A stretch of 64,000 nucleotides of DNA from a virus: positions 1 to 64,000 of IMG/VR virus record IMGVR_UViG_3300002131_000176; one strand, written 5' to 3'. Position 1 is the stretch's first letter. Each line of letters starts with the position of its first letter. The translations under genes were made by a program, and so were the position numbers. Positions 3,210 through 57,620 of the stretch are shown here, one piece after another. Under the pieces are notes generated by a model. That model was given only the letters and a program-made list of their open reading frames with translations. It did no database searches and was not told the DNA's origin.

Positions 3210-3238
3210 TGTACAACATCCGAAAAATGTGGTATAAT
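3210..3238 (+). promoter_or_regulatory. sigma70-type promoter for gp32 and the tmRNA
   Basis: TGTACA (3210-3215) and a perfect TATAAT (3233-3238) are separated by 17 bases. The expected start near 3245 leaves a leader of about 37 bases carrying AAAGGAAAA before the gp32 ATG. The next terminator is at 4478, so gp32 and the tmRNA gene are probably one transcript. Confidence 0.6.
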
Positions 3239-3281: not shown

Positions 3282-4181
3282 ATGTCATTTGAAAATCTAA
3301 AACGCAATCGCGACAACATCTCTAAACTCATCAATGCTGCCGAGCAAGTCGGTGGTGGTTCAGGTGGTGAGAAAAAATCCTATGGTGACGAACGAATCTG
3401 GAAACCAACTGTTGACAAGGCAGGTAATGGCTATGCAGTACTTCGCTTCTTGCCGCCTGCAACAGGCGAGGATTTGCCTTGGGTTCGTTACTGGGATCAT
3501 GGTTTCAAAGGCCCTACAGGTCAGTGGTACATTGAGAACAGTCTCACGTCGATCGGCCAAGCTGATCCAGTAGGTGAGCTAAACTCCAAGCTATGGAATT
3601 CTGGTGTTGAATCAGATAAAGAACTTGCGCGTTTGCAGAAGCGTCGCCTGCACTATGTTGTTAATGCATATGTCGTAAGTGACCCTAGTAATCCAGATAA
3701 CGAGGGCAAAATAATGCTCTTTAAGTTTGGTAAAAAGATCTTTGATAAGATCATGGATGTAATGCAACCTGCATTCCAAGATGAAAAGGCCGTAAATCCT
3801 TTTGACTTCTGGGAAGGTGCTGACTTCAAATTGAAGATCCGTCAAGTTGAAGGTTACCGTAACTACGATAAGTCTGAGTTCTCATCTCCTGCTGCTTTGT
3901 CAGATGATGATGCTAAGCTTGAAGCCATCTATGGCCAAATGCATCCATTGCAAGAGTTCTTGGACCCAGCTAACTATAAGTCATACTCTGAGCTGCAATC
4001 TAAATTGCAACGAGTATTAGGTATGGTTGCTGAAACAGGTTCGCCTTCAATGCAGCAGGAACGTGTCATGAATGAACCAGCTCCTGCACCCACGTTTAAG
4101 CAACCAGTTGCTGCAGCTGATGTGAGTGATGACGAAGAAGATACTATGAGTTATTTTGCCAAATTGGCACAAGACGATTGA
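3282..4181 (+). CDS. gp32: gp32 single-stranded DNA-binding protein, 299 aa
   Basis: gp32 coats single-stranded DNA during replication, recombination and repair. The N-terminal LAST-type basic motif (KRNRDNISKL), the core GNGYAVLRFLPP, GQWYIENS, VNAYVVSDPSNPDNEGKI, FKFGKKIFDKI and VEGYRNYDKSEF all follow T4 gp32, and the protein ends in an acidic tail (DVSDDEEDTMSYFAKLAQDD) like the T4 protein-interaction domain. Length is close to T4 (301). Unlike T4, the protein has no cysteine: the zinc-binding Cys77/Cys87/Cys90 region is replaced by ENSLTSIGQADPVGELN. The tmRNA gene follows directly after its stop. Confidence 0.93.
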   Translation: MSFENLKRNRDNISKLINAAEQVGGGSGGEKKSYGDERIWKPTVDKAGNGYAVLRFLPPATGEDLPWVRYWDHGFKGPTGQWYIENSLTSIGQADPVGELNSKLWNSGVESDKELARLQKRRLHYVVNAYVVSDPSNPDNEGKIMLFKFGKKIFDKIMDVMQPAFQDEKAVNPFDFWEGADFKLKIRQVEGYRNYDKSEFSSPAALSDDDAKLEAIYGQMHPLQEFLDPANYKSYSELQSKLQRVLGMVAETGSPSMQQERVMNEPAPAPTFKQPVAAADVSDDEEDTMSYFAKLAQDD

Positions 4182-4184
4182 TAT

Positions 4185-4477
4185 TATTGCTGTAAGAAGC
4201 AAAGAGAAAGGTGTTCTGGACGGGGGTTCGATTCCCCCCACCTCCACCAGAAGCATACTACCTGACTGTATAATTCAGTAAGCATTTAGGGAAGATCCAC
4301 AGTAGTATGTTTCTGATGGGGGTGTACAGGTTTCGACAGGGCAAAGAGTAACGGAGTGGACAGCACAGTAGGCGATGACTGTAAATCAAGCAAAATCCAA
4401 TAACTGCAAACGACGAGTTATTTGCTATTGCCGCTTAAGCATAGCTGAGGTAACTATACCTTATCACCCAAAATAGT
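4185..4477 (+). ncRNA. ssrA: circularly permuted (two-piece) tmRNA, tag ANDELFAIAA
   Basis: The gene reads acceptor piece first, coding piece second. The acceptor piece has a T arm (stem 4222-4226 with 4234-4238, loop TTCGATT) and ends CACCTCC-A-CCA at 4239-4249. The coding piece begins GGGGGTG at 4318-4324. These seven bases pair fully with 4239-4245 and give a G3-U70 wobble, the alanine identity element. The D-like region TTTCGACAGGG follows. The tag frame runs GCA (4406) to TAA (4438) and encodes ANDELFAIAA, with GCAAACGAC at its start as in many tmRNAs. AGAGTA (4345-4350) can pair with TGTTCT (4212-4217) as helix P2. The 5' end of the acceptor piece and 3' end of the coding piece are estimates. 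tmRNA rescues stalled ribosomes and tags the product for proteolysis. Confidence 0.92.
4250..4317 (+). other. intervening segment of the permuted tmRNA precursor
   Basis: These 68 bases lie between the encoded acceptor CCA and the 5' G of the coding piece and would be removed on maturation. AGCATACTAC (4252-4261) pairs with GTAGTATGTT (4302-4311), and an inner ACTG/CAGT hairpin surrounds TATAAT. The fold would hold the two tmRNA ends together for RNase P and 3' processing. Confidence 0.75.
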
Positions 4478-4501
4478 AAAGGGTCCTTCGGGACCCTTTT
4501 T
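4478..4501 (+). terminator. rho-independent terminator
   Basis: AAAGGGTCC (4478-4486), a TTCG loop closed by C-G, and GGACCCTTTTT (4491-4501) form a strong hairpin with a T run. It ends the gp32-tmRNA transcript. The weaker T-rich run on the other side may let it also stop the convergent minus-strand transcript that ends at 4504. Confidence 0.9.
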
Positions 4502-4503
4502 AG

Positions 4504-6111
4504 TTATCTTATAAAACCAGATACATTATACCTGGTGTCTACAGACGATAGCGGTGGTAATGCAAGCGCACTATTATTGCTACTTGATCGTACGCTATTA
4601 TCTTGAATTACAATTGGAGCACCATTGCCCATCCCTCGGCTACGCGACGCTGCAGCATCAGCACCCTGAGCATTTAAACTACCGATAACTGAAGCATTTT
4701 GGGGTACTGGTTTAGTCGGTGATTTATATGTAGTTGATCTTGGATCTGATACAGCATCCATTCTCACATTAGGCGTTGTTGCCAATTCATGTGATTTTGC
4801 CGCTGATTTTAATGTATCGGATTTTCCACCCAATAACCATTCAGCCAGGCTTGTCGCAAGCATATCGCCAGACAAACCACCTATTATTGCTCCAGCAATT
4901 GTTCCAAGTCCAGGTGCGACCAATGAACCAACCAATGCACCAAGGCCTGCGCCACCGATACCACCCAATATGCCAGAGACACCTTTTATCTTATCATCTT
5001 TAGAGCCGTCACCCATTAATACATTGGCAATTAGACCGGCACTGATAAGGCCACCTAGTACTGGTATTTTAGATGCAAACTTACTGAGTGCACCAAACCG
5101 TGGAAATTTCTTGGCAACTGCCGCTGCATCTGCCGCCGTGGTTGCTTGTGCAGTTTTAAGTGCAGCACCCGTAAGTGGTTTACCCGTTTTAAGACTAGTA
5201 TAATTGCCTGCCTTATCAACTTTAAACTTTCTTGGTTTGGCCGTTGTGGTGGCAGCAACAGGAGTTTTGGATGTAGTAGCGGCAGCGGCAGCGGCAGCAG
5301 GAGCTGTGGCAGCAGCGGCAGCGGCACCAGGTTTGAGTGCGGCGGCAGCAGCACTTCCCGCAATTCCAGCACCTCTAGCGGCTGTAGCGCCAGCGGCCGC
5401 AGCAAGGCCTAAAGTTCCTTTTAAAGCTTTAAATGCTAATCCTATAACACCAAGTGGTTTAAATGCAAATGCAAGTAAACCTAATGTGATACCAATATTC
5501 TTTATATCAGTACCAAAAGATTCAAAGTCACCTTCAAGGATATTGTTTAAACCTTTAAGAGCGCCATTAAACTTATTGACAATAAATGTCTGTACTTCCT
5601 TCAGTGACGGTAATTGAATACCATTCTCTGTCATGAATTTATCAGTACTGGTCATCCATCCAGTGATAGTGGTTTTAAGACTCTTAAATGCAGTACCTAT
5701 ATTGGTAAATAAACGACTGAGTTCGTCAGTGTCAACACCACTAGCAATAGTACCTATTAAGAATGCCAGGGGACCAAAGCGTAATAATAATTTACCGAAT
5801 TTAAGAAAGGATATTAAGAATCCACCTAAGATCGGGATACCAGCCAAAGCACCACCAACACCTTTAAACATATTGCCAAGACCACCAAACATTCCACCAC
5901 TGTTGGATTCACCTTTGGCTTTATCGGTCTTGACCTTCACCCCACGCTCTGCTTCTTTATCAGACTCGAGCCTGTCAAGTCTATCTGCATACAGCGTTGA
6001 TACTAGTTTATCAATATTATTTGATGTACTCTTAACACCCTCGTCGGTTGATTGAAGAATACTGTTTTGATTTACTAATGTAGTATTGATGGTTGATAGG
6101 GTTACGGCCAT
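4504..6111 (-). CDS. probable tail tape-measure/hub protein (gp29 position), 535 aa
   Basis: The protein has a helical charged N terminus (about 1-75, SNNIDKLVSTLYADRLDRLE), a long Gly-rich hydrophobic block (about 85-130, GIPILGGFLISFLKFGKLLL), an Ala/Thr/Pro low-complexity linker (about 245-295) and two further Gly-rich hydrophobic segments (about 345-365 and 375-420). Hydrophobic segments in a long helical protein are typical of tape measures. It lies directly downstream of the gp26-like ORF and its probable frameshift partner, where tailed phages usually place the tape measure. T4 gp29 is 590 aa. At the usual 1.5 angstrom per residue it would specify a tail of about 80 nm. An inner-membrane virion protein is the alternative. 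Confidence 0.5.
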   Translation of the reverse strand: MAVTLSTINTTLVNQNSILQSTDEGVKSTSNNIDKLVSTLYADRLDRLESDKEAERGVKVKTDKAKGESNSGGMFGGLGNMFKGVGGALAGIPILGGFLISFLKFGKLLLRFGPLAFLIGTIASGVDTDELSRLFTNIGTAFKSLKTTITGWMTSTDKFMTENGIQLPSLKEVQTFIVNKFNGALKGLNNILEGDFESFGTDIKNIGITLGLLAFAFKPLGVIGLAFKALKGTLGLAAAAGATAARGAGIAGSAAAAALKPGAAAAAATAPAAAAAAATTSKTPVAATTTAKPRKFKVDKAGNYTSLKTGKPLTGAALKTAQATTAADAAAVAKKFPRFGALSKFASKIPVLGGLISAGLIANVLMGDGSKDDKIKGVSGILGGIGGAGLGALVGSLVAPGLGTIAGAIIGGLSGDMLATSLAEWLLGGKSDTLKSAAKSHELATTPNVRMDAVSDPRSTTYKSPTKPVPQNASVIGSLNAQGADAAASRSRGMGNGAPIVIQDNSVRSSSNNSALALPPLSSVDTRYNVSGFIR

Positions 6112-32646: not shown

Positions 32647-33420
32647 TTATCCAAAAGATATATGGAAGTCTTTGTTAACATGGTGCACGAAGTGGGACCC
32701 AGCCGAGATATCCGGGCAGTTATGGTCTAATAAAAAATTCCACTGCAATCCAATATTTTTAAATGGAACATTATATTTCTCAATCAGGTAGGTAACGAAT
32801 ATTTCATTGTTATTTTTCCAGTGCTTACAAATTTCATCCGGATAGATGTTATTTGTTTTTGCTTCATGAAGAACAGCTTTCATTTCATCAAGCCTCTTTA
32901 AAAAGTTTAATTTACTTAACGATTTTTTATTACCTGCAATCACGCCTGTGTTAATAATGCCGCTTGAACCAGTGGCATCATCTAAGCTTAACATAGCCGT
33001 TTTAGCACAAAATTTATTGTACATATTCATAGCATCAAACATATTATGAGTAATGGCTTCGAGCAAAGCTTCTCTATCCATTTTTTGTTCTATGTTATAC
33101 GCACATATAGAATTTAAATCCCAGGCCTCAAAAAAATTGACCTTTGTATTTGGCACTACATCAAAGTCTAAATACAAAACCTCGTTGTTATTATCGGCAA
33201 ATTCTTCTAATAGAATTAATTTATCAAATTGTATTTCATCGTAGTCTGTTGATCTAGCATCAACTAGTATATATGATGCACCACAATACATAGCATATTC
33301 TTTTTGTGCTTTATAAAGCTGCTTTTTATATTTTTTAAACTGACTAAGTTTGTAGTCTGATGATGACGAGTGGCCTGGATTTAAGTCATCAGTGAATATA
33401 CTAAATACAATTCTTTTCAT
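32647..33420 (-). CDS. glycosyltransferase-like protein, 257 aa
   Basis: The protein opens MKRIVFSIFTDDLNPGHSSS and carries EVLYLDFDVVP with the DxD pair Asp85 and Asp87, followed by NFFEAWDL. This block recurs almost unchanged in the gene at 33401, so the two are paralogues. The rest contains SGIINTGVIAG, typical of GT-A nucleotide-sugar enzymes that check an acceptor. Its first 20 bases overlap the end of the upstream gene. Donor and acceptor are unknown. Confidence 0.6.
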   Translation of the reverse strand: MKRIVFSIFTDDLNPGHSSSSDYKLSQFKKYKKQLYKAQKEYAMYCGASYILVDARSTDYDEIQFDKLILLEEFADNNNEVLYLDFDVVPNTKVNFFEAWDLNSICAYNIEQKMDREALLEAITHNMFDAMNMYNKFCAKTAMLSLDDATGSSGIINTGVIAGNKKSLSKLNFLKRLDEMKAVLHEAKTNNIYPDEICKHWKNNNEIFVTYLIEKYNVPFKNIGLQWNFLLDHNCPDISAGSHFVHHVNKDFHISFG

Positions 33421-35301: not shown

Positions 35302-38300
35302 ATGGCAACAAAAGTTTTAACGCCAGGTACAACAATAGTCAGAAAGATAACATCAGGAAGAACAATAGTCAAAAAGATTGTTGTTGGCATACCATTAACA
35401 AAGAATGTATCTAGTGGCGCAAATGTTGATAACTTAGTTGGCATCAATACCGATGGTAAGCAGACCGGTGATGTGCTGTTATACGATTCAGATGCTGGTG
35501 GTGATTATGTAACCACATCCTTAGTAGACTTAGTAAGAAGCTATATTAGTGCTGGTGGTGATTTATCATATGATTCTGCCACAGGCGAATTTAGTATTGA
35601 CGTTGAGCAGATTTATACTGCCGAAAACTTTGATTCCGATTTTATTATTGCCATTCAAACTATTGACGGCAGTTTAGTACCAAATTTAGATAGCTCATAT
35701 AATCTAGGTAGTCCAACGAAGAAATGGAAAGATCTATACCTAAGTGGTAATACCATTTACTTGGGTGGCATCAGTCTTGTCGATCAAGCTGGATCCTTTG
35801 CTGTAAAAGATTCAAACGGTGCTGCTGCTCCATTCTCGCTTGAAGCTAACAACACAAATGACCTGGCAGAAGGCGGTAATAATCTTTATTATACTCGCAC
35901 CAGGTTTGATTCTGCTTTAGCTGATGGTTTATCTACTCAGCAAATTCGTGCATATTTTGATGGTGGCACTGGTGTAACGTACGACTCATCTACGGGTGTG
36001 TTTTCAATCGGACAGCCGGTTGCAACTACTGATGACGTAACATTTAATAATGTAGACGTATCTGGTGAATTAGTCGTTCAAGGGAACCTTACAGTTCAAG
36101 GTACTACGACAACAATTAATTCAACAACCGTTAGTATAAACGATAAAAATATTGTACTTGCAGATTCTGCTGTAGATGCTGCTGCCGCTAACGGTGCTGG
36201 TATTACAATTAATGGTGCAGATGCTTCATTAACATATTCTGCAGCTGAAGATAAGTTTGTATTTGATAAAGGTGTTATAGCACCCAACTATCAGGGTGTT
36301 TATCTCGGCTTTGATTCCGATTTAGCTAGAAACTCAACTGTACAATCAATTCGTGGATATTTTAACGCGGCCGGCGACTTATCATACAATTCAGCCACGG
36401 GTGAGTTCTCATTCGATGTTGAGGAAGTATATACAAAAGCTAACTTTGATTCTGATTTCAATGATGCTTTAGACGAGGCATCAATCAACGGCCTTGGTCT
36501 TTCATACAATAGTGCAACAAATACTATTAGTATTACTAATACTGGCGTTACGGCAAATACCTATGGCTCTGCTACTCGGATTCCGGTGTTCTCCGTTAAT
36601 GCTCAAGGTCAACTTACACTGGCCACGGAAACAAATATAGCCTCTGTTGAATCAATAGACTTTGATTCTGCTTCAGGTAATTTTAATGTGATGACCACTG
36701 ACGGTCAGTCATTTAATACAGTAATTACGCTTGATCCATATACGACTAGCAACTTAACTGAAGGCGATGACCTTTATTATACTAGAGCCAGGTTTGATTC
36801 TGCATTAGGCGATACTACATCTATACAATCCATCCGCAGCTATTTAAACGCTGGTGGTGACATGTCATATGATGCAAATACTGGTACATTCAGTATTAAT
36901 GTAGAAGAGATCTACACTAAAGCTAATTTTGACAGTGACTTTAATGTCTCAGTCGATGAAGCAGCATTGAATGGTGATGGCCTATCTTACAATAGCGGAA
37001 CAAATACTTTAAGCATTACTGCTACTGGCGTTGATTCTGGCACTTATGGATCTACAACACAGATTCCGGTGTTTACAGTTAACGACAGAGGACAAATCGA
37101 TTCTATCGGCACCGTATTAGTTGCTGGTGTATCATCAACTAGTTATGATTCATCAAACGGCCAGTTGACAATCAACACAGCCGACGGTAACTCATTTGTT
37201 ACTACATTGCACGATTCTGCTGATCATGTGTCAAGAGCAAGATATGCAATAACCTCTGTCGATAACGGTGGTGATGGTTCATTCACATACAATGCATCCA
37301 CGGGTGTGCTCACGTACACGGGCCCATCGGCAGCAGAGGTGCGTTCACACTTTAGTGCTAGCGGTGACCTAAGCTATGATAGCGCAACAGGTCAATTCAC
37401 CTTTGATGTTGAAGCTGTTTATACTAAGGCTAATTTTGACAGTGACTTTAATGTATCACTTGACGAAGCCGCATTAGGTGGTACTGGTTTAACTTATAAT
37501 TCAGGTACTAATACACTTGACATTACAAACACCGGGGTTGTTGCTGGCGAATACGGTTCTGCAACACAGATACCAATTATTACTGTTAATGCTCAAGGAC
37601 AAGTTGATAGCATTAGTGAAATCCTTGTTGCCGGTGTTACTGATTTTGGCTTTGATTCATCAAACGGACAGTTTACAATCAGTACTGCTGACGGTGGTTC
37701 ATTTACAACAGTTGCAACGTTAGATCCATATACAACAACTACATTGGCCGAAGGCGGTAATCTTTACTATACAACGGCACGTGCTGATAGTGATGCAAAG
37801 AATTCGGTAAGTGCTACCGACGCTGGTGGTGATGGTTCACTTGTTTACAATAATGGCACTGGTGTGTTTACCTATACTGGCCCTAGCGCTACTGAAACAA
37901 GAGCTCACTTTACCGGCGGTACGGGTGTAACGATTACAGATGGTACTGTTGAAATCGGACAGACTGTTGACAGCACAAGTGATGTTATTTTCGGCAAAGT
38001 AACGGTTGATTCTGCCAACGTTGGTGGTATTAATTTTAACGCAACACCTGGAACATATTCATCCGTACCTGGTGCGTTGTATTGGGACTCAGATCCACAG
38101 AAAGGCTTGAGTTTCACACCCACGACCAATGAAGGTAATAGTGATGTCACAATTAATATTGGCCAAGAATCCTTAATTTACGTACACAACCAAACTGGCG
38201 AAACGGTTAGCAATGGTGATATTGTTTATATCTCCGGCACCGCACATGGGCAACATCCATCAATTACAAAGGCCAAAGCTGATGTTGCAGTATCTGGTAC

Positions 38301-41187
38301 TGTTGCAATGGCAACCATGGATATGGTTGATAATGCTCACGGTTATGTCACTCGTTTTGGTCTTGTAAGAGATCTAAACACTGGTGGTTTAACTGCTGGT
38401 GCTGATGTTTATCTTTCTGTAGACTCTGCTGGTAAGTGGACAACCAATAGTGTTACGGTTGATGATGGTTATCCTATTCATATCGGTAAAATTATTAGGG
38501 TTGATTCATCAACTGGTTCAATACTTATTGACCCGTTCACCGAACATTTTGAGTATTTAAGAATTCAAGATCGGATGATTGTTACCGGATCAGTTGAAGC
38601 ATCAACAATGCTCATTGATTCCTCTCTTAAATTTGCTGATATTGATTATGCACTACGCCCAGCATGGGATGAAGGCAGAATGTGGTATGATCAAGACGGT
38701 AAAACACTTGCCTATCATACCGCCGATTCTGATTATGTCCAATATATTGGTGAGAGAGAATGGGTACGAGGTAGAAATAGTTCTGGCCTATTTATTGCAA
38801 AAGGTACTCCAGTTTATACGGATGGCGTGCACATTGCCGGTCATCCCATTCACGGACATCATCCATTAATCTACTCAGCCGATGCTGCTGTAGATGGTAA
38901 GTATGAAGTTATTGGTGTTACTGCTCATGATGTTCCTAATGGTGCCCATGGTTATGTTATAACACGTGGTTGGATTCAGGACATTGATACAACAGGCCTC
39001 GTGTCAGGTCAAAGATTCCATTTGGCCCCAGGTGGTGGTTATCAAGTTGCTGCAGCTAATTATCCTAACTATCCGATTGATCTTGGTATTGCTCTTACTA
39101 TTGATTCTGCCGGTGCTGGTGGTTCAGTTTATATTGATGTTAATAGTCACACACAAGAACAATTACGTATCACTGGCGATGGAAGAGTTGATGGTAACTT
39201 TACCGTTGGTGGTAACCTTAACGTTGTTGGTGTTACCACCTCGGCGATAACACAAGATATAACAGTATCATCTAACCTTGTAAAACTTTTGGACGGCAAT
39301 ACACTTGGTACTGCTTATCAAAGTGTGGGTGGCTTGGATGATGCAACATTTATTGGTTCATATCGTGGTGATTCAGACCTGTTCTATTTTGTAAGAATTG
39401 CTTCCACTGATTCCAGTGGTGATGTTATTGAATGGGGTATTTCAGATTCCGATCTGATGTCATACGGTTCATTTAATGGCACCTATGGTTATGGTGCTGG
39501 ATTTGATTCAGCCAATGGTCCTACTACATGGAATCTAATTACTAATGGTTTGACTGCGCCATTAAGAAATAATATCTCTATTCGGTTTATTAACGAGACT
39601 GGCCACCAGGATTCAGATGTTTGGTGTGCGCACCCAACTGAATTGAATCTTGACCTTGGTATGGTTGGTAACTACAACCCCGCGGGCCCTGGTGGTATTA
39701 AATATGCAGGTCTGTATAGAAGCGCCACTGATGCACGGTGGAGATTCTTTGATGGCCTGACACAAAACCTTGATAGTTCTGTTGTTTCAATTTCAGACTC
39801 TGATGGGTTTACACTATCAGATGTCCAAGCAAATACTTTTTACGGTTCGCTAAGTGGTAATGCAACAAGTGCAACTTCTGCTACACAACTTGCCACAGGT
39901 AGAGCATTTAGTCTGACAGGTGATATTACAGCAACTGGTGTATCATTTGATGGTACTGGCTCAGTACAATTAACAACTGTTTACAATCCAGGCTCAATTG
40001 TTAATGCTGATATTAATGCAACTGCCGGTATTGTAGATACAAAACTTGCTACAATCAGTACTGCGGGTAAAGTTTCCAACTCTGCTACTACGGCAACTGC
40101 TCTTAACACCGGTTCTGCAATCGTTGCTCGTGACGTAAGTGGTAACTTTACTGCTGGTACAATTACCGCTGCATTAACGGGTAATGTCACAGGCCAGGTT
40201 TCTGATATCAGTAATCACAGCACTACGGACTTGTCTGAAGGTGATAACTTATATTATACCAAAGTTCGCGTTGACTCAGATGTTAATCAAGGCTTTACTG
40301 ACCGCAATACAACAAACCTCGTTGAAGGTGATAACCTTTACTATACAAAAGCTCGGGTTGATAGTGATGTCAATCAAGGTTTTACTGATAGAACAACTAC
40401 TGATGTAGCAGAAGGTACCAACCTTTACTACACAACGGTTCGTGCAGATAGTGATTTTGATGTTCGATTGACCACAAAATCAACAACCGATGTTGCTGAG
40501 GGTACTAATCTTTACTATACAACTGCTCGTGCTGATAGTGATTTTGATGCAAGGCTTACAACTAAGTCTACCGATGATGTAACCGAAGGTACAAATCTTT
40601 ACTATACAACGGCTCGTGCTGATAGTGATGCAAAGAATGCAATATCAGTTACAGATACCGGTGGTGATGGTTCACTTTCATATAATCCAATTACTGGCAT
40701 TATTACATACACAGGTCCTTCACCCAGTGAAATAAGATCACATTTCTCTGCTGGTGGTGATTTAAGTTATGATTCTGCCACTGGTAGATTTAGTATTGAT
40801 GTTGAAACAATTTACACCAAGATCAATTTTGATTCTGACTTGGGTGATGCTTCAACCGATGACTTGCCTGAAGGTATTATAAACCTTTACTATACAACGG
40901 CTAGAGCAGATAGTGATTTTGATTCAAGACTTACAACAAAGACAACTACTAATGTAGCAGAAGGTACTAATTTATATTATACCACAGCTAGAGCAGATAG
41001 TGATTTTGATGCAAGATTAAATATCAAATCAACCACAGATGTTGCCGAAGGTAGTAACCTTTACTATACAACTGCTCGTGCAGATTCCGATGTTACAGCA
41101 TTGGTTGATAGTGATTATATTGCAGCAAGAATTATTGAAGCAGATCCGGCCGGCACTGCCGTAGCAATGGCCATTGCACTTGGATAA
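35302..41187 (+). CDS. giant repeat-containing tail fibre, 1961 aa
   Basis: This long beta-rich fibre is rich in Asp, Ser, Gly and Thr. The N terminus (TKVLTPGTTIVRKITSGRTI) repeats a TxxGxTIVxKI motif and is likely the attachment end. Blocks of the type AGGDLSYDSATGEFSIDVE and EEIYTKANFDSDFNVS recur several times across residues 80-800. A carbohydrate-like middle part (about 960-1260) has two related segments around HGYVxTRG/HGYVTRFG. The C terminus (about 1645-1930) contains eight LYYTxxRxDSD units, mostly 29 residues apart; three more occur upstream. There is no S74 chaperone domain. It is the longest fibre and probably reaches the host first. Confidence 0.8.
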   Translation: MATKVLTPGTTIVRKITSGRTIVKKIVVGIPLTKNVSSGANVDNLVGINTDGKQTGDVLLYDSDAGGDYVTTSLVDLVRSYISAGGDLSYDSATGEFSIDVEQIYTAENFDSDFIIAIQTIDGSLVPNLDSSYNLGSPTKKWKDLYLSGNTIYLGGISLVDQAGSFAVKDSNGAAAPFSLEANNTNDLAEGGNNLYYTRTRFDSALADGLSTQQIRAYFDGGTGVTYDSSTGVFSIGQPVATTDDVTFNNVDVSGELVVQGNLTVQGTTTTINSTTVSINDKNIVLADSAVDAAAANGAGITINGADASLTYSAAEDKFVFDKGVIAPNYQGVYLGFDSDLARNSTVQSIRGYFNAAGDLSYNSATGEFSFDVEEVYTKANFDSDFNDALDEASINGLGLSYNSATNTISITNTGVTANTYGSATRIPVFSVNAQGQLTLATETNIASVESIDFDSASGNFNVMTTDGQSFNTVITLDPYTTSNLTEGDDLYYTRARFDSALGDTTSIQSIRSYLNAGGDMSYDANTGTFSINVEEIYTKANFDSDFNVSVDEAALNGDGLSYNSGTNTLSITATGVDSGTYGSTTQIPVFTVNDRGQIDSIGTVLVAGVSSTSYDSSNGQLTINTADGNSFVTTLHDSADHVSRARYAITSVDNGGDGSFTYNASTGVLTYTGPSAAEVRSHFSASGDLSYDSATGQFTFDVEAVYTKANFDSDFNVSLDEAALGGTGLTYNSGTNTLDITNTGVVAGEYGSATQIPIITVNAQGQVDSISEILVAGVTDFGFDSSNGQFTISTADGGSFTTVATLDPYTTTTLAEGGNLYYTTARADSDAKNSVSATDAGGDGSLVYNNGTGVFTYTGPSATETRAHFTGGTGVTITDGTVEIGQTVDSTSDVIFGKVTVDSANVGGINFNATPGTYSSVPGALYWDSDPQKGLSFTPTTNEGNSDVTINIGQESLIYVHNQTGETVSNGDIVYISGTAHGQHPSITKAKADVAVSGTVAMATMDMVDNAHGYVTRFGLVRDLNTGGLTAGADVYLSVDSAGKWTTNSVTVDDGYPIHIGKIIRVDSSTGSILIDPFTEHFEYLRIQDRMIVTGSVEASTMLIDSSLKFADIDYALRPAWDEGRMWYDQDGKTLAYHTADSDYVQYIGEREWVRGRNSSGLFIAKGTPVYTDGVHIAGHPIHGHHPLIYSADAAVDGKYEVIGVTAHDVPNGAHGYVITRGWIQDIDTTGLVSGQRFHLAPGGGYQVAAANYPNYPIDLGIALTIDSAGAGGSVYIDVNSHTQEQLRITGDGRVDGNFTVGGNLNVVGVTTSAITQDITVSSNLVKLLDGNTLGTAYQSVGGLDDATFIGSYRGDSDLFYFVRIASTDSSGDVIEWGISDSDLMSYGSFNGTYGYGAGFDSANGPTTWNLITNGLTAPLRNNISIRFINETGHQDSDVWCAHPTELNLDLGMVGNYNPAGPGGIKYAGLYRSATDARWRFFDGLTQNLDSSVVSISDSDGFTLSDVQANTFYGSLSGNATSATSATQLATGRAFSLTGDITATGVSFDGTGSVQLTTVYNPGSIVNADINATAGIVDTKLATISTAGKVSNSATTATALNTGSAIVARDVSGNFTAGTITAALTGNVTGQVSDISNHSTTDLSEGDNLYYTKVRVDSDVNQGFTDRNTTNLVEGDNLYYTKARVDSDVNQGFTDRTTTDVAEGTNLYYTTVRADSDFDVRLTTKSTTDVAEGTNLYYTTARADSDFDARLTTKSTDDVTEGTNLYYTTARADSDAKNAISVTDTGGDGSLSYNPITGIITYTGPSPSEIRSHFSAGGDLSYDSATGRFSIDVETIYTKINFDSDLGDASTDDLPEGIINLYYTTARADSDFDSRLTTKTTTNVAEGTNLYYTTARADSDFDARLNIKSTTDVAEGSNLYYTTARADSDVTALVDSDYIAARIIEADPAGTAVAMAIALG
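40220..41090 (+). repeat. 29-residue (87-base) tandem repeats in the giant fibre
   Basis: Eight copies of a unit centred on LYYTTARADSDFDARLTT are encoded here, most exactly 29 codons apart, with one longer interruption around 40640-40880. The first two copies read KVRVDSDVNQGFTDR and the later ones TARADSDFDARLTTK, so the array has drifted or been converted in blocks. Copy number could change by recombination. Confidence 0.8.
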
Positions 41188-55435: not shown

Positions 55436-56013
55436 CACCTATAATCGTTGACAATTTATTGCCAGTTGGTTATGCAGATGATATAGAACGAGACCTAAAA
55501 CAAACTGGGTTCAATTGGTATTATATCGAGGATGTAACTAACCCAAAGTATGGAAACAATTCTGGGTTTGTGCATCCTGCATATGATTATGGTAAAAGCC
55601 CTAGTGAGTGGTTTCCTTATATTAAACCACTAGTGTATTCTATAGAACAATCTCTTGGTAGAAAAATAGAAGAATTATATAGAATACGCGTTGGGTTGTT
55701 GTTGCCATCACTAGATGATAAACAGTACAATACCCCACATGTGGATTTTTTGTGGCCACACTGCACCGCTTGCTACTACGTTTCAAACAGCGACGGTGAC
55801 ACAGTAGTATTTAATCAGCATCTATCAGATGCAGGTACTGACATAAATAACGAGTCGCTAAGGCTTTATGCAGAAGATACAAATTTTACAGTAAAAACTA
55901 GTGTAGCACCTGTGAAAAATAGGCTGGTGATATTTGATGGTTTTAATTTTCATGCTAGTACAAAACCAAAACAACATGACACAAGACTGGTAATAACAGT
56001 AAACTTTAAATGA
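55432..56013 (+). CDS. Fe(II)/2-oxoglutarate-dependent oxygenase (prolyl-4-hydroxylase-like), 193 aa
   Basis: The facial triad is visible as His103-Phe-Asp105 (TPHVDFLWPH, with HVD) and His174 (DGFNFHAST), and Arg185 (HDTRLVITV) would bind 2-oxoglutarate. The jelly-roll strands CTACYYVSNSDGDTVVF and NRLVIFDGFNFHAS fit the prolyl-hydroxylase-like group. It would hydroxylate an unknown substrate in the infected cell. It overlaps both the upstream Cys protein and the halogenase by four bases, so the three probably work on one product. Confidence 0.75.
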   Translation: MTPIIVDNLLPVGYADDIERDLKQTGFNWYYIEDVTNPKYGNNSGFVHPAYDYGKSPSEWFPYIKPLVYSIEQSLGRKIEELYRIRVGLLLPSLDDKQYNTPHVDFLWPHCTACYYVSNSDGDTVVFNQHLSDAGTDINNESLRLYAEDTNFTVKTSVAPVKNRLVIFDGFNFHASTKPKQHDTRLVITVNFK

Positions 56014-57620
56014 GCAAACACATTAAAAAAATCCTAATCGTTGGTGGCGGAAGCTCAGGTTGGATGACTGCAGCAGCGCTAATCAAACAGGTGCCTGACA
56101 TTGAAGTTAGTTTGATTGAATCACCGTCGACTCCTACAATCGGTGTAGGAGAAAGCACTATTGGGCAAATTAACACCTTTTTTACCTACCTAGGTCTTAA
56201 AGATGAAGACTGGATGAGTTACTGCAACGCAACTTATAAGACTTCTATTAAGTTTATAAATTTTAGGGAAAACCCAACAGACACACCGCACGTGTTCCAC
56301 TATCCGTTTGGTCGGTACAATACAGCGAATAAACCAAGGATGATAATGGAATGGTTTATCGCGAAAGCGAAAGACCCATCATTAGACCCATACACTTTTG
56401 CTGAATTTTACCACGATTCAATCGCAATGATTGATAGCAACAAGTTAACAAAAAATGAAGATGGCAGCGTTAAGGGGTTTGATTTCTCTAATGATACTGC
56501 ATACCATATGGATGCAACTCTCTTTGGCCAATACCTAAGAGACCGCATATGTAAACCAAATGGATTAACACATATATTAGACGATGTTGTTGATATTAGA
56601 AAAAACGACATGGGAGAAATAGATCACCTAACAACTAAAAACGGTGATACTCTTACTGCCGATCTCTTTATAGATTGCACGGGGTTCAAGTCTTTGTTGT
56701 TAGAAGAAACAATGCAAGTGCCATTCGTGTCTTTTTCTGACACGTTGCTCAACGACCGAGCTATCGCAACAGTAATTCCTTATGCAGATAAGGAACACGA
56801 AATGGAATCAGTTACTAGTTGTACTGCAATTGAGTCAGGTTGGGTTTGGAATATTCCATTGTGGAATAGAATAGGCACTGGATATGTTTACTCATCGCAA
56901 TTTGCAACAGAGGAAGAAGCAGAAGAACAGTTTCGAAATCATTTAAAATCAGCTAACATGCGTTTACCGCATCAAATTAAAAGAGCCGAAGAAGCTGAAG
57001 TTAGACATATAAAAATTAAACATGGTGTACACAAGCGCAGCTGGGAAAAGAACGTAGTTGGCATAGGATTATCAATGGGGTTCATAGAGCCGCTTGAATC
57101 TACTGGCCTGATGTTGACACATGAAGGCATCATCAAACTAATACACACCTTAGGAGCTCGTAATGGCACTGTGACGCAGTTTGATATTGATTGCTATAAC
57201 TTTGCATTCTACGAGCAAATTGTGAATTTTAAAGATTTTATTTCACTGCACTATGCATTGAGCATGCGTGATGACACTCCTTATTGGAAAAAAGTGACGT
57301 CAATGACTTACTCAGTTGGTATGAATGAACGCATTGCAAATGCAGTTGGAAACACGTATGCATCTGTAGCTTCAAATATACACAAAGAAAAGTCATTTGC
57401 ATCAGAAGGTGGAGGCATTCTATACATTACTGCAGGTATGGGGCATAATTGCATTAACCAACCTCATGAAGAGTATTTAAGACTACTGTACCAAGAGCCT
57501 GAAGAACTTACATCTAAGGTTTTTAAAGAGTGGCAAGAACACAGAAAGGTGCTTAAAAAACATGTGGATACATTACCTAGCCATTATGAGTTCTTGCGTG
57601 ACACCATATACAATAAATAA
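56010..57620 (+). CDS. flavin-dependent halogenase (tryptophan-halogenase family), 536 aa
   Basis: The FAD-binding GGGSSG (12-17) follows a strand KILIVGGG. The family signature GWVWNIP (277-283, WxWxIP) keeps a monooxygenase reaction out. FIEPLESTG (358-366) lines the halide/active site, and Lys77 in YKTSIKF corresponds to the catalytic lysine that carries hypohalite. Length matches PrnA/RebH (about 530-540). Marine cyanophages are known to carry a viral halogenase (VirX1) of this family. No flavin reductase is visible in the window, so host FADH2 would be needed. Substrate unknown. Confidence 0.88.
   Translation: MSKHIKKILIVGGGSSGWMTAAALIKQVPDIEVSLIESPSTPTIGVGESTIGQINTFFTYLGLKDEDWMSYCNATYKTSIKFINFRENPTDTPHVFHYPFGRYNTANKPRMIMEWFIAKAKDPSLDPYTFAEFYHDSIAMIDSNKLTKNEDGSVKGFDFSNDTAYHMDATLFGQYLRDRICKPNGLTHILDDVVDIRKNDMGEIDHLTTKNGDTLTADLFIDCTGFKSLLLEETMQVPFVSFSDTLLNDRAIATVIPYADKEHEMESVTSCTAIESGWVWNIPLWNRIGTGYVYSSQFATEEEAEEQFRNHLKSANMRLPHQIKRAEEAEVRHIKIKHGVHKRSWEKNVVGIGLSMGFIEPLESTGLMLTHEGIIKLIHTLGARNGTVTQFDIDCYNFAFYEQIVNFKDFISLHYALSMRDDTPYWKKVTSMTYSVGMNERIANAVGNTYASVASNIHKEKSFASEGGGILYITAGMGHNCINQPHEEYLRLLYQEPEELTSKVFKEWQEHRKVLKKHVDTLPSHYEFLRDTIYNK

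Follow-up and report, generated by a model that had tools for sequence, protein, structure and literature searches.

What kind of RNA gene lies directly behind gp32 in this viral DNA, and what has become of the segment between its two halves? The stretch analysed (the window) covers bases 1 to 64,000 of a virus record of 102,284 bases; the virus is a T4-like myovirus, as its gp32, tail tube, baseplate wedge, neck protein and large terminase genes are all of T4 type. A preliminary description of the sequence had proposed a phage-encoded, circularly permuted two-piece tmRNA at this locus. Our analysis agrees with that proposal and leads us, with a probability of roughly 80%, to a functional permuted beta-type tmRNA of the phage in which the discarded spacer has turned into an exchangeable slot.

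A permuted beta-type tmRNA gene behind gp32

In a cmscan of the window, RF01850 (beta_tmRNA) matched positions 4141-4502 with 166.3 bits (E 1.4e-51; model positions 1-331 of 331) and RF04321 (tmRNA_permuted) matched 4188-4438 with 146.8 bits (1-213 of 213), so that the covariance-model check suggested in the preliminary description returned high-scoring matches over the full length of both models, and a chance match is excluded. ARAGORN made a single permuted tmRNA call in the window, with the tag ANDELFAIAA, and positions from about 4188 to 4477 are confirmed as a complete, circularly permuted beta-type tmRNA encoded by the phage (Table 1). Our reading of the sequence bore out the proposed anatomy as well: the acceptor half precedes the coding half, the CCA is encoded, and the acceptor stem closes across the two pieces with seven pairs, among them G4320:U4243, the G3:U70 pair, which is kept in 134 of 135 distinct permuted tmRNA genes. 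Further pairing joins the two pieces through GTTCTG/CAGGGC and TGCTGT/ACAGCA, and the tag frame had been read correctly.

Table 1. Coordinates of features in the gp32-tmRNA region of the window
Feature	Position	Strand	Details
Sigma-70-like promoter TGTACA-17-TATAAT upstream of gp32	3210..3238	+	10/12 matches, extended TG
gp32-type single-strand DNA binding protein	3282..4181	+	299 aa; phrog_224, E 1.5e-110
Acceptor piece (pairing segment, T arm, acceptor 3' strand, A73, CCA)	4185..4249	+	sequence reading, cmscan, ARAGORN
T arm	4222-4238	+	T stem 4222-4226/4234-4238
Acceptor 3' strand CACCTCC	4239-4245	+	sequence reading
A73	4246	+	sequence reading
CCA	4247-4249	+	sequence reading
Internal transcribed spacer (ITS), predicted to be removed from the precursor	4250..4317	+	68 nt
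Terminal helix of the spacer	4250-4261 with 4302-4313	+	12 bp
Conserved core GACTGTATAATTCAGTAAGCATTTAGGGAAGATCCAC, two small hairpins inside a covarying stem	4264..4300	+	37 nt; recurs in tmRNA spacers and phage tRNA arrays
TGAT at the spacer end	4314-4317	+	
RNase P cut, predicted	between 4317 and 4318	+	
Coding piece (acceptor 5' strand, D-loop segment GGTTTCGAC, tag frame, 3' domain)	4318..4477	+	exact 3' end inferred
Acceptor 5' strand GGGGGTG	4318-4324	+	sequence reading
Tag frame ANDELFAIAA with TAA stop	4406..4438	+	resume codon GCA at 4406; ARAGORN, sequence reading
Intrinsic terminator hairpin	4478..4499	+	present also in L004 and L005, there without tmRNA

The gene had been placed in the 3' region of gp32, but it begins 3-7 nt beyond the gp32 stop codon (4181), and one permuted tmRNA gene occupies the interval between that stop and the terminator hairpin. 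The gp32 protein itself is at 55-56% to those of the cultured phage Melnitz and of phage C48C1 (tblastn). Judged from its sequence, the site upstream of gp32 is likely the promoter of a gp32-tmRNA transcript, chance matches to such sites being common; because the short gap separating the gp32 stop from the acceptor piece cannot accommodate a promoter and a good site lies upstream of gp32, the two genes are probably co-transcribed, ending at the hairpin. In two contigs (L004 and L005) whose gp32 is 92-93% identical to the window's, the same terminator follows about 20 bases after gp32 with no tmRNA between, so that the tmRNA gene represents either a clean insertion or a clean loss, from stop codon to terminator. 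Contigs L101 and L119 have the tmRNA at the same place as the window, and many other T4-like contigs carry a permuted tmRNA roughly 2-8 kb upstream of gp32 on the same strand, as in Melnitz, from which the location in the window's lineage differs.

The close relatives with an empty site are what one would expect if the tmRNA were a passive passenger or functionless remnant in the phage. We consider this improbable, as both models match over their full length, the tag frame and the G3:U70 pair are intact, and the mature pieces of the window, L101 and L119 are 99.4% identical (all 65 nt of the acceptor piece being the same) amid flanking DNA of about 87-93% identity, although near identity of the backbone could also stem from recent transfer or recombination instead of selection. 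For a functional tmRNA, the suggestion that it may keep ribosomes free or tag proteins during infection is plausible, and SmpB would have to come from the host, since no SmpB gene was found in the 102-kb record.

Several other observations concern the wider record. By ARAGORN, the 102-kb record (positions 64001-102284 of G000, that is L171 and L172, plus the window) contains no tRNA genes, the tmRNA being its sole tRNA-like gene. The window also encodes a tryptophan halogenase amid phage structural genes (56010-57620; phrog_2928, E 4e-157), an ORF of 1,961 aa with no Pfam family above the cut-off (35302-41187), and, on the minus strand, a glycosyltransferase family 8 domain (32647-33420).

Relation to known two-piece tmRNAs and to the host

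Phage tmRNA was catalogued in 2014 (PMC4131195), and the 2025 tmRNA database from which RF04321 derives includes 79 phage sequences (PMC11915505). Melnitz, described in 2022, is a T4-like phage of OM43 with a two-piece tmRNA, and its authors found tmRNA in 402 phages with 133 unique structures, of which 53 are two-piece and 50 of these marine or aquatic (PMC9004378). Public records further hold permuted tmRNA in Stenotrophomonas, Xanthomonas, Alcaligenes and Synechococcus phages, and dozens of the contigs that we scanned carry a permuted tmRNA together with a gp32 homologue. The two-piece form had been thought unusual in a T4-like genome, but the window's tmRNA is of an already published kind.

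Like the window, Melnitz (Kyanoviridae) has a complete permuted tmRNA in the gp33-gp32 region and a spacer with a terminal helix and TGAT. Its tmRNA, however, is alpha-type (RF01849) with the tag ANDNYVPVDYALAA, whereas the window's is beta-type with the tag ANDELFAIAA, and it lies about 2 kb upstream of gp32 beside a glutamine riboswitch, whereas the window's lies directly downstream of gp32 and has a different spacer. The spacer is not discussed in the available part of the Melnitz paper (PMC9004378). The betaproteobacterial permuted tmRNA of Cupriavidus sp. KK10 (RF01850) shares the window's fold, its order and a spacer hairpin ending in TGAT, but has the tag ANDEKFALAA and a spacer of 32 nt without cargo, in contrast to the 68 nt with a conserved core in the window. 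Stenotrophomonas phages IME-SM1, Moby and Marzo (Menderavirus) and Synechococcus phage S-CAM1 have phage-borne permuted tmRNAs like the window, partly annotated in public records, but their tags and spacers are unlike the window's, and the Menderavirus copies lie in tRNA clusters. A group I intron tmRNA (tmRNA_intron; PMC11915505) resembles the permuted spacer in that a removable segment within the tmRNA gene can host a protein gene; the intron self-splices within the T loop, whereas the permuted spacer is excised by enzymes of tRNA processing, and the flanking pieces are left unjoined.

The tag had been offered as a pointer to the host group. We dropped this use of it, as an exact search for ANDELFAIAA with a TAA stop, in all codings, gave no match in the genomes of 84,980 GTDB species; the same tag and stop were found in seven other viral contigs. 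A search of the same genomes with a beta-core pattern that was probably too strict likewise gave no match. The type of the RNA, whose best model is betaproteobacterial, is a better hint of the host than the tag, but still a weak one.

Turnover of the spacer between conserved ends

Scans of viral contigs and public records yielded 194 permuted calls, and in 164 of the genes we could separate the acceptor piece, the spacer and the coding piece; all of these genes come from phage records or viral contigs except that of Cupriavidus (L094). Because exact motif scans supplied the phage sample, contig counts in it are not frequencies. The 123 distinct spacers have a median length of 79 nt, the shortest being 5 nt and the longest 237 nt (that of Cupriavidus has 32 nt), and most are without recognisable content. 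Like the anatomy of the gene, the conservation of the helix, the turnover and sharing of spacers, the ORFs and the core common to tRNA arrays described below are features seen in the sequences themselves.

The spacer of the window folds with -18.6 kcal/mol (z -2.87; none of 200 shuffles as good). Over 117 spacers, the two ends formed a mean of 10.2 contiguous pairs, against 4.7 in cross-paired controls that joined 5' and 3' arms of different spacers (highest mean in 1,000 shuffles, 5.3), and at least eight contiguous end pairs were present in 100 of the 117, against 16 in the controls. TGAT stands at the 3' end of 105 of the 123 spacers, ahead of the predicted RNase P cut. Leaders that end in A(-2)U(-1) are among those best suited to RNase P, whereas a leader paired with the RCCA end is cleaved more slowly (PMC9433436); UGAU facing ACCA combines the two properties, as its end is optimal but it can pair in part with ACCA. 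The interface of helix and TGAT probably predates the phage cargo, because the Cupriavidus spacer, too, has this hairpin and TGAT. Even phage spacers as short as 25-28 nt (L152, L256/L281 and L209/L259) retain the TGAT end and an apparent terminal hairpin.

In the window, L101 and L119, the near-identical mature pieces enclose spacers of 68, 134 and 237 nt, respectively; the window's is without similarity to the other two, and that of L119 consists of the L101 spacer preceded by another hairpin unit and a 15-nt GGTGGTGCTCCACCA link. Across the sample, 62 gene pairs combine backbones at least 95% identical with spacers less than 60% identical; the converse, spacers of at least 90% identity on backbones of less than 80% identity with different tags, holds for six pairs. 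Identical spacers, as in L141/L280, L175/L216 and L230/L232, exemplify sharing between differing backbones, and the same spacer was found again in several contigs. A blastn search with the window's spacer gave no match in public phage records.

Nearly all of these sequences are single IMG/VR contigs, and the ends of the tmRNA are conserved enough to be mis-joined, so that shared spacers might be chimeras of metagenome assembly with no biological exchange behind them. We think this very unlikely, as the same architecture is present in the isolates Melnitz (spacer of 142 nt, 9-bp terminal helix, TGAT and an ORF with an SD), Stenotrophomonas phage QDWS359 (110 nt) and Xanthomonas phage Rb1 (107 nt), individual spacers recur in several contigs, and the differences between homologous spacers are point and compensatory changes. 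The excised spacer seems instead to be a swap site, which related phages occupy with various structured RNAs, with a tRNA or with genes for small proteins. In open-access papers we found neither spacer exchange nor spacer ORFs described, and their novelty is likely but not proven.

Contents of the spacer and the proposed mechanism

Protein cargo was sought in the 57 spacers of at least 80 nt that end in TGAT or TAAT, as an ATG at bases 8-16 followed by a frame open to a stop within the TGAT or TAAT. Full-length small ORFs of this kind were present in 14 of the 57, some of them close relatives and only one (L342) from an ORF-aimed scan, against a mean of 0.65 and a maximum of 3 in dinucleotide shuffles of the interior. 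In diverged homologous pairs, silent change per site exceeds replacement change (pS 0.71 and pN 0.27 for L139/L111; pS 0.56 and pN 0.24 for L157/L244). Many of the spacer ORFs look like one membrane-spanning segment, with -FF or -FL as their last residues because the final codons make the 3' arm of the helix. The ORF of L146 matches the C-terminus of phrog_4098 (E 6.7e-11), the only convincing PHROG match among spacer ORFs; in tblastn searches for known phage genes, a 62-aa spacer protein had no match and a 41-aa one a best match of only E 0.6. In the cultured phage Melnitz (L002, Melnitz-3; tmRNA at 5232-5684), the spacer contains an unannotated ORF with an SD, MFKWLSKTRLVVITRDYF... = MFKWLSKTRLVVITRDYFRERNRKADAKIPKYLSGTRSVYDG..., which runs on into the coding piece.

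RNA cargo was also found. The spacer of L240 holds a tRNA (Rfam, 44.8 bits against a cut-off of 29) and is alone in being a tRNA by score; a tRNA-like reading of the L119 and L130 spacers was unsupported. For the core of the window's spacer, a query of 25 bases found eleven other contigs, where it lies in tmRNA spacers on other backbones with other tags (L248, L410, L411, L413 and L414), as a free hairpin in or beside tRNA arrays (L408, L412, L415, L416 and L417), or between genes (L409). The 25 query bases are identical by construction, whereas the identity of the adjoining GACTGTA and CCAC does not follow from the query. Covariation is seen in the closing stem, where eight pairs have changed on both sides (score 0.352 vs 0.142; none of 500 shuffles reached it), and shifting the register gives nothing close to this result. 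We rejected a dispersed repeat family, as one copy per record argues against it; the core may assist processing, act as a decoy for enzymes that target tRNA or be a selfish passenger.

HDV-like theta ribozymes are known next to phage tRNAs (PMC10879173), and the sites of the core beside tRNA ends and in phage tRNA arrays recall them. That the core is a self-cleaving ribozyme of this or another kind is nevertheless hardly credible, as the window's spacer (4245-4325) had no match to any Rfam family at E of 10 or less, and the outer helix, starting from the first spacer bases, would leave no space for an HDV P1 strand. A broader objection is that the spacer is simply unconstrained, fast-drifting sequence, its cassettes random indels and its ORFs and core coincidence, as the wide range of lengths and the many spacers without recognisable content might suggest. 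Drift, however, is a poor explanation for near-identical or identical spacers on backbones of less than 80% identity, for a 37-nt core that recurs in other settings, and for ORFs about 20-fold above the shuffle null with an excess of silent change in both diverged pairs, and we regard it as unlikely to be correct. A more far-reaching view, which we hold to be quite probable, is that the excised spacer is a general exchangeable cargo site docked by the helix and UGAU, and that the window's cassette belongs to an undescribed RNA family that is also free-standing in phage tRNA arrays.

Two further arrangements were observed in other contigs. In L408 (465) and L412 (6823), both of them tRNA-bearing contigs, a second shared segment, TTAGGGCCTATGTGGTGTAGGTAGC, lies just upstream of the free-standing cassette and is possibly another structured RNA. 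On the minus strand of L273 (about 1200-1960), a tandem arrangement begins with an acceptor piece, a cassette, a 23-nt GGGCCTGCAATGCAGGTCCACCA minihelix with G3:U70 and a second cassette, followed by a truncated coding piece and a complete permuted tmRNA; its processing would release an alanine-type minihelix.

The mechanism that we propose extends the sequence evidence to processing, charging, trans-translation, cargo expression and any benefit, all of which we can only infer. The tmRNA would be transcribed with gp32 and end at gp32's terminator, and in the folded precursor the helix of the spacer ends would continue the acceptor stem. Cleavage by RNase P after UGAU would then give the coding piece its 5' end, the CCA end would be released by other host nucleases, and the pieces would remain paired with each other. 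Charged with alanine by the host AlaRS through G3:U70, and together with host SmpB, the RNA could rescue ribosomes and tag peptides with ANDELFAIAA during infection. Because the spacer is discarded, it could serve in this phage group as an exchangeable slot that, provided that the terminal helix and UGAU are retained, would accept structured RNAs, a tRNA, or small ORFs that stop at the UGA of UGAU. Homologous recombination between the conserved mature parts or the helix arms may be enough to move spacers.

Phages appear to use the dead space between the tmRNA halves to carry and exchange genes and RNAs without harming an RNA of essential type, and the spacer slot is a compact analogue of gene-bearing introns. 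It offers a testable reason why the permuted gene order should be favoured in phages, and it exposes unannotated small proteins, one of them in cultured Melnitz, along with a new structured RNA family tied to phage tRNA arrays. The latter may also be relevant to phage handling of tRNA processing or of host defences that target tRNA.
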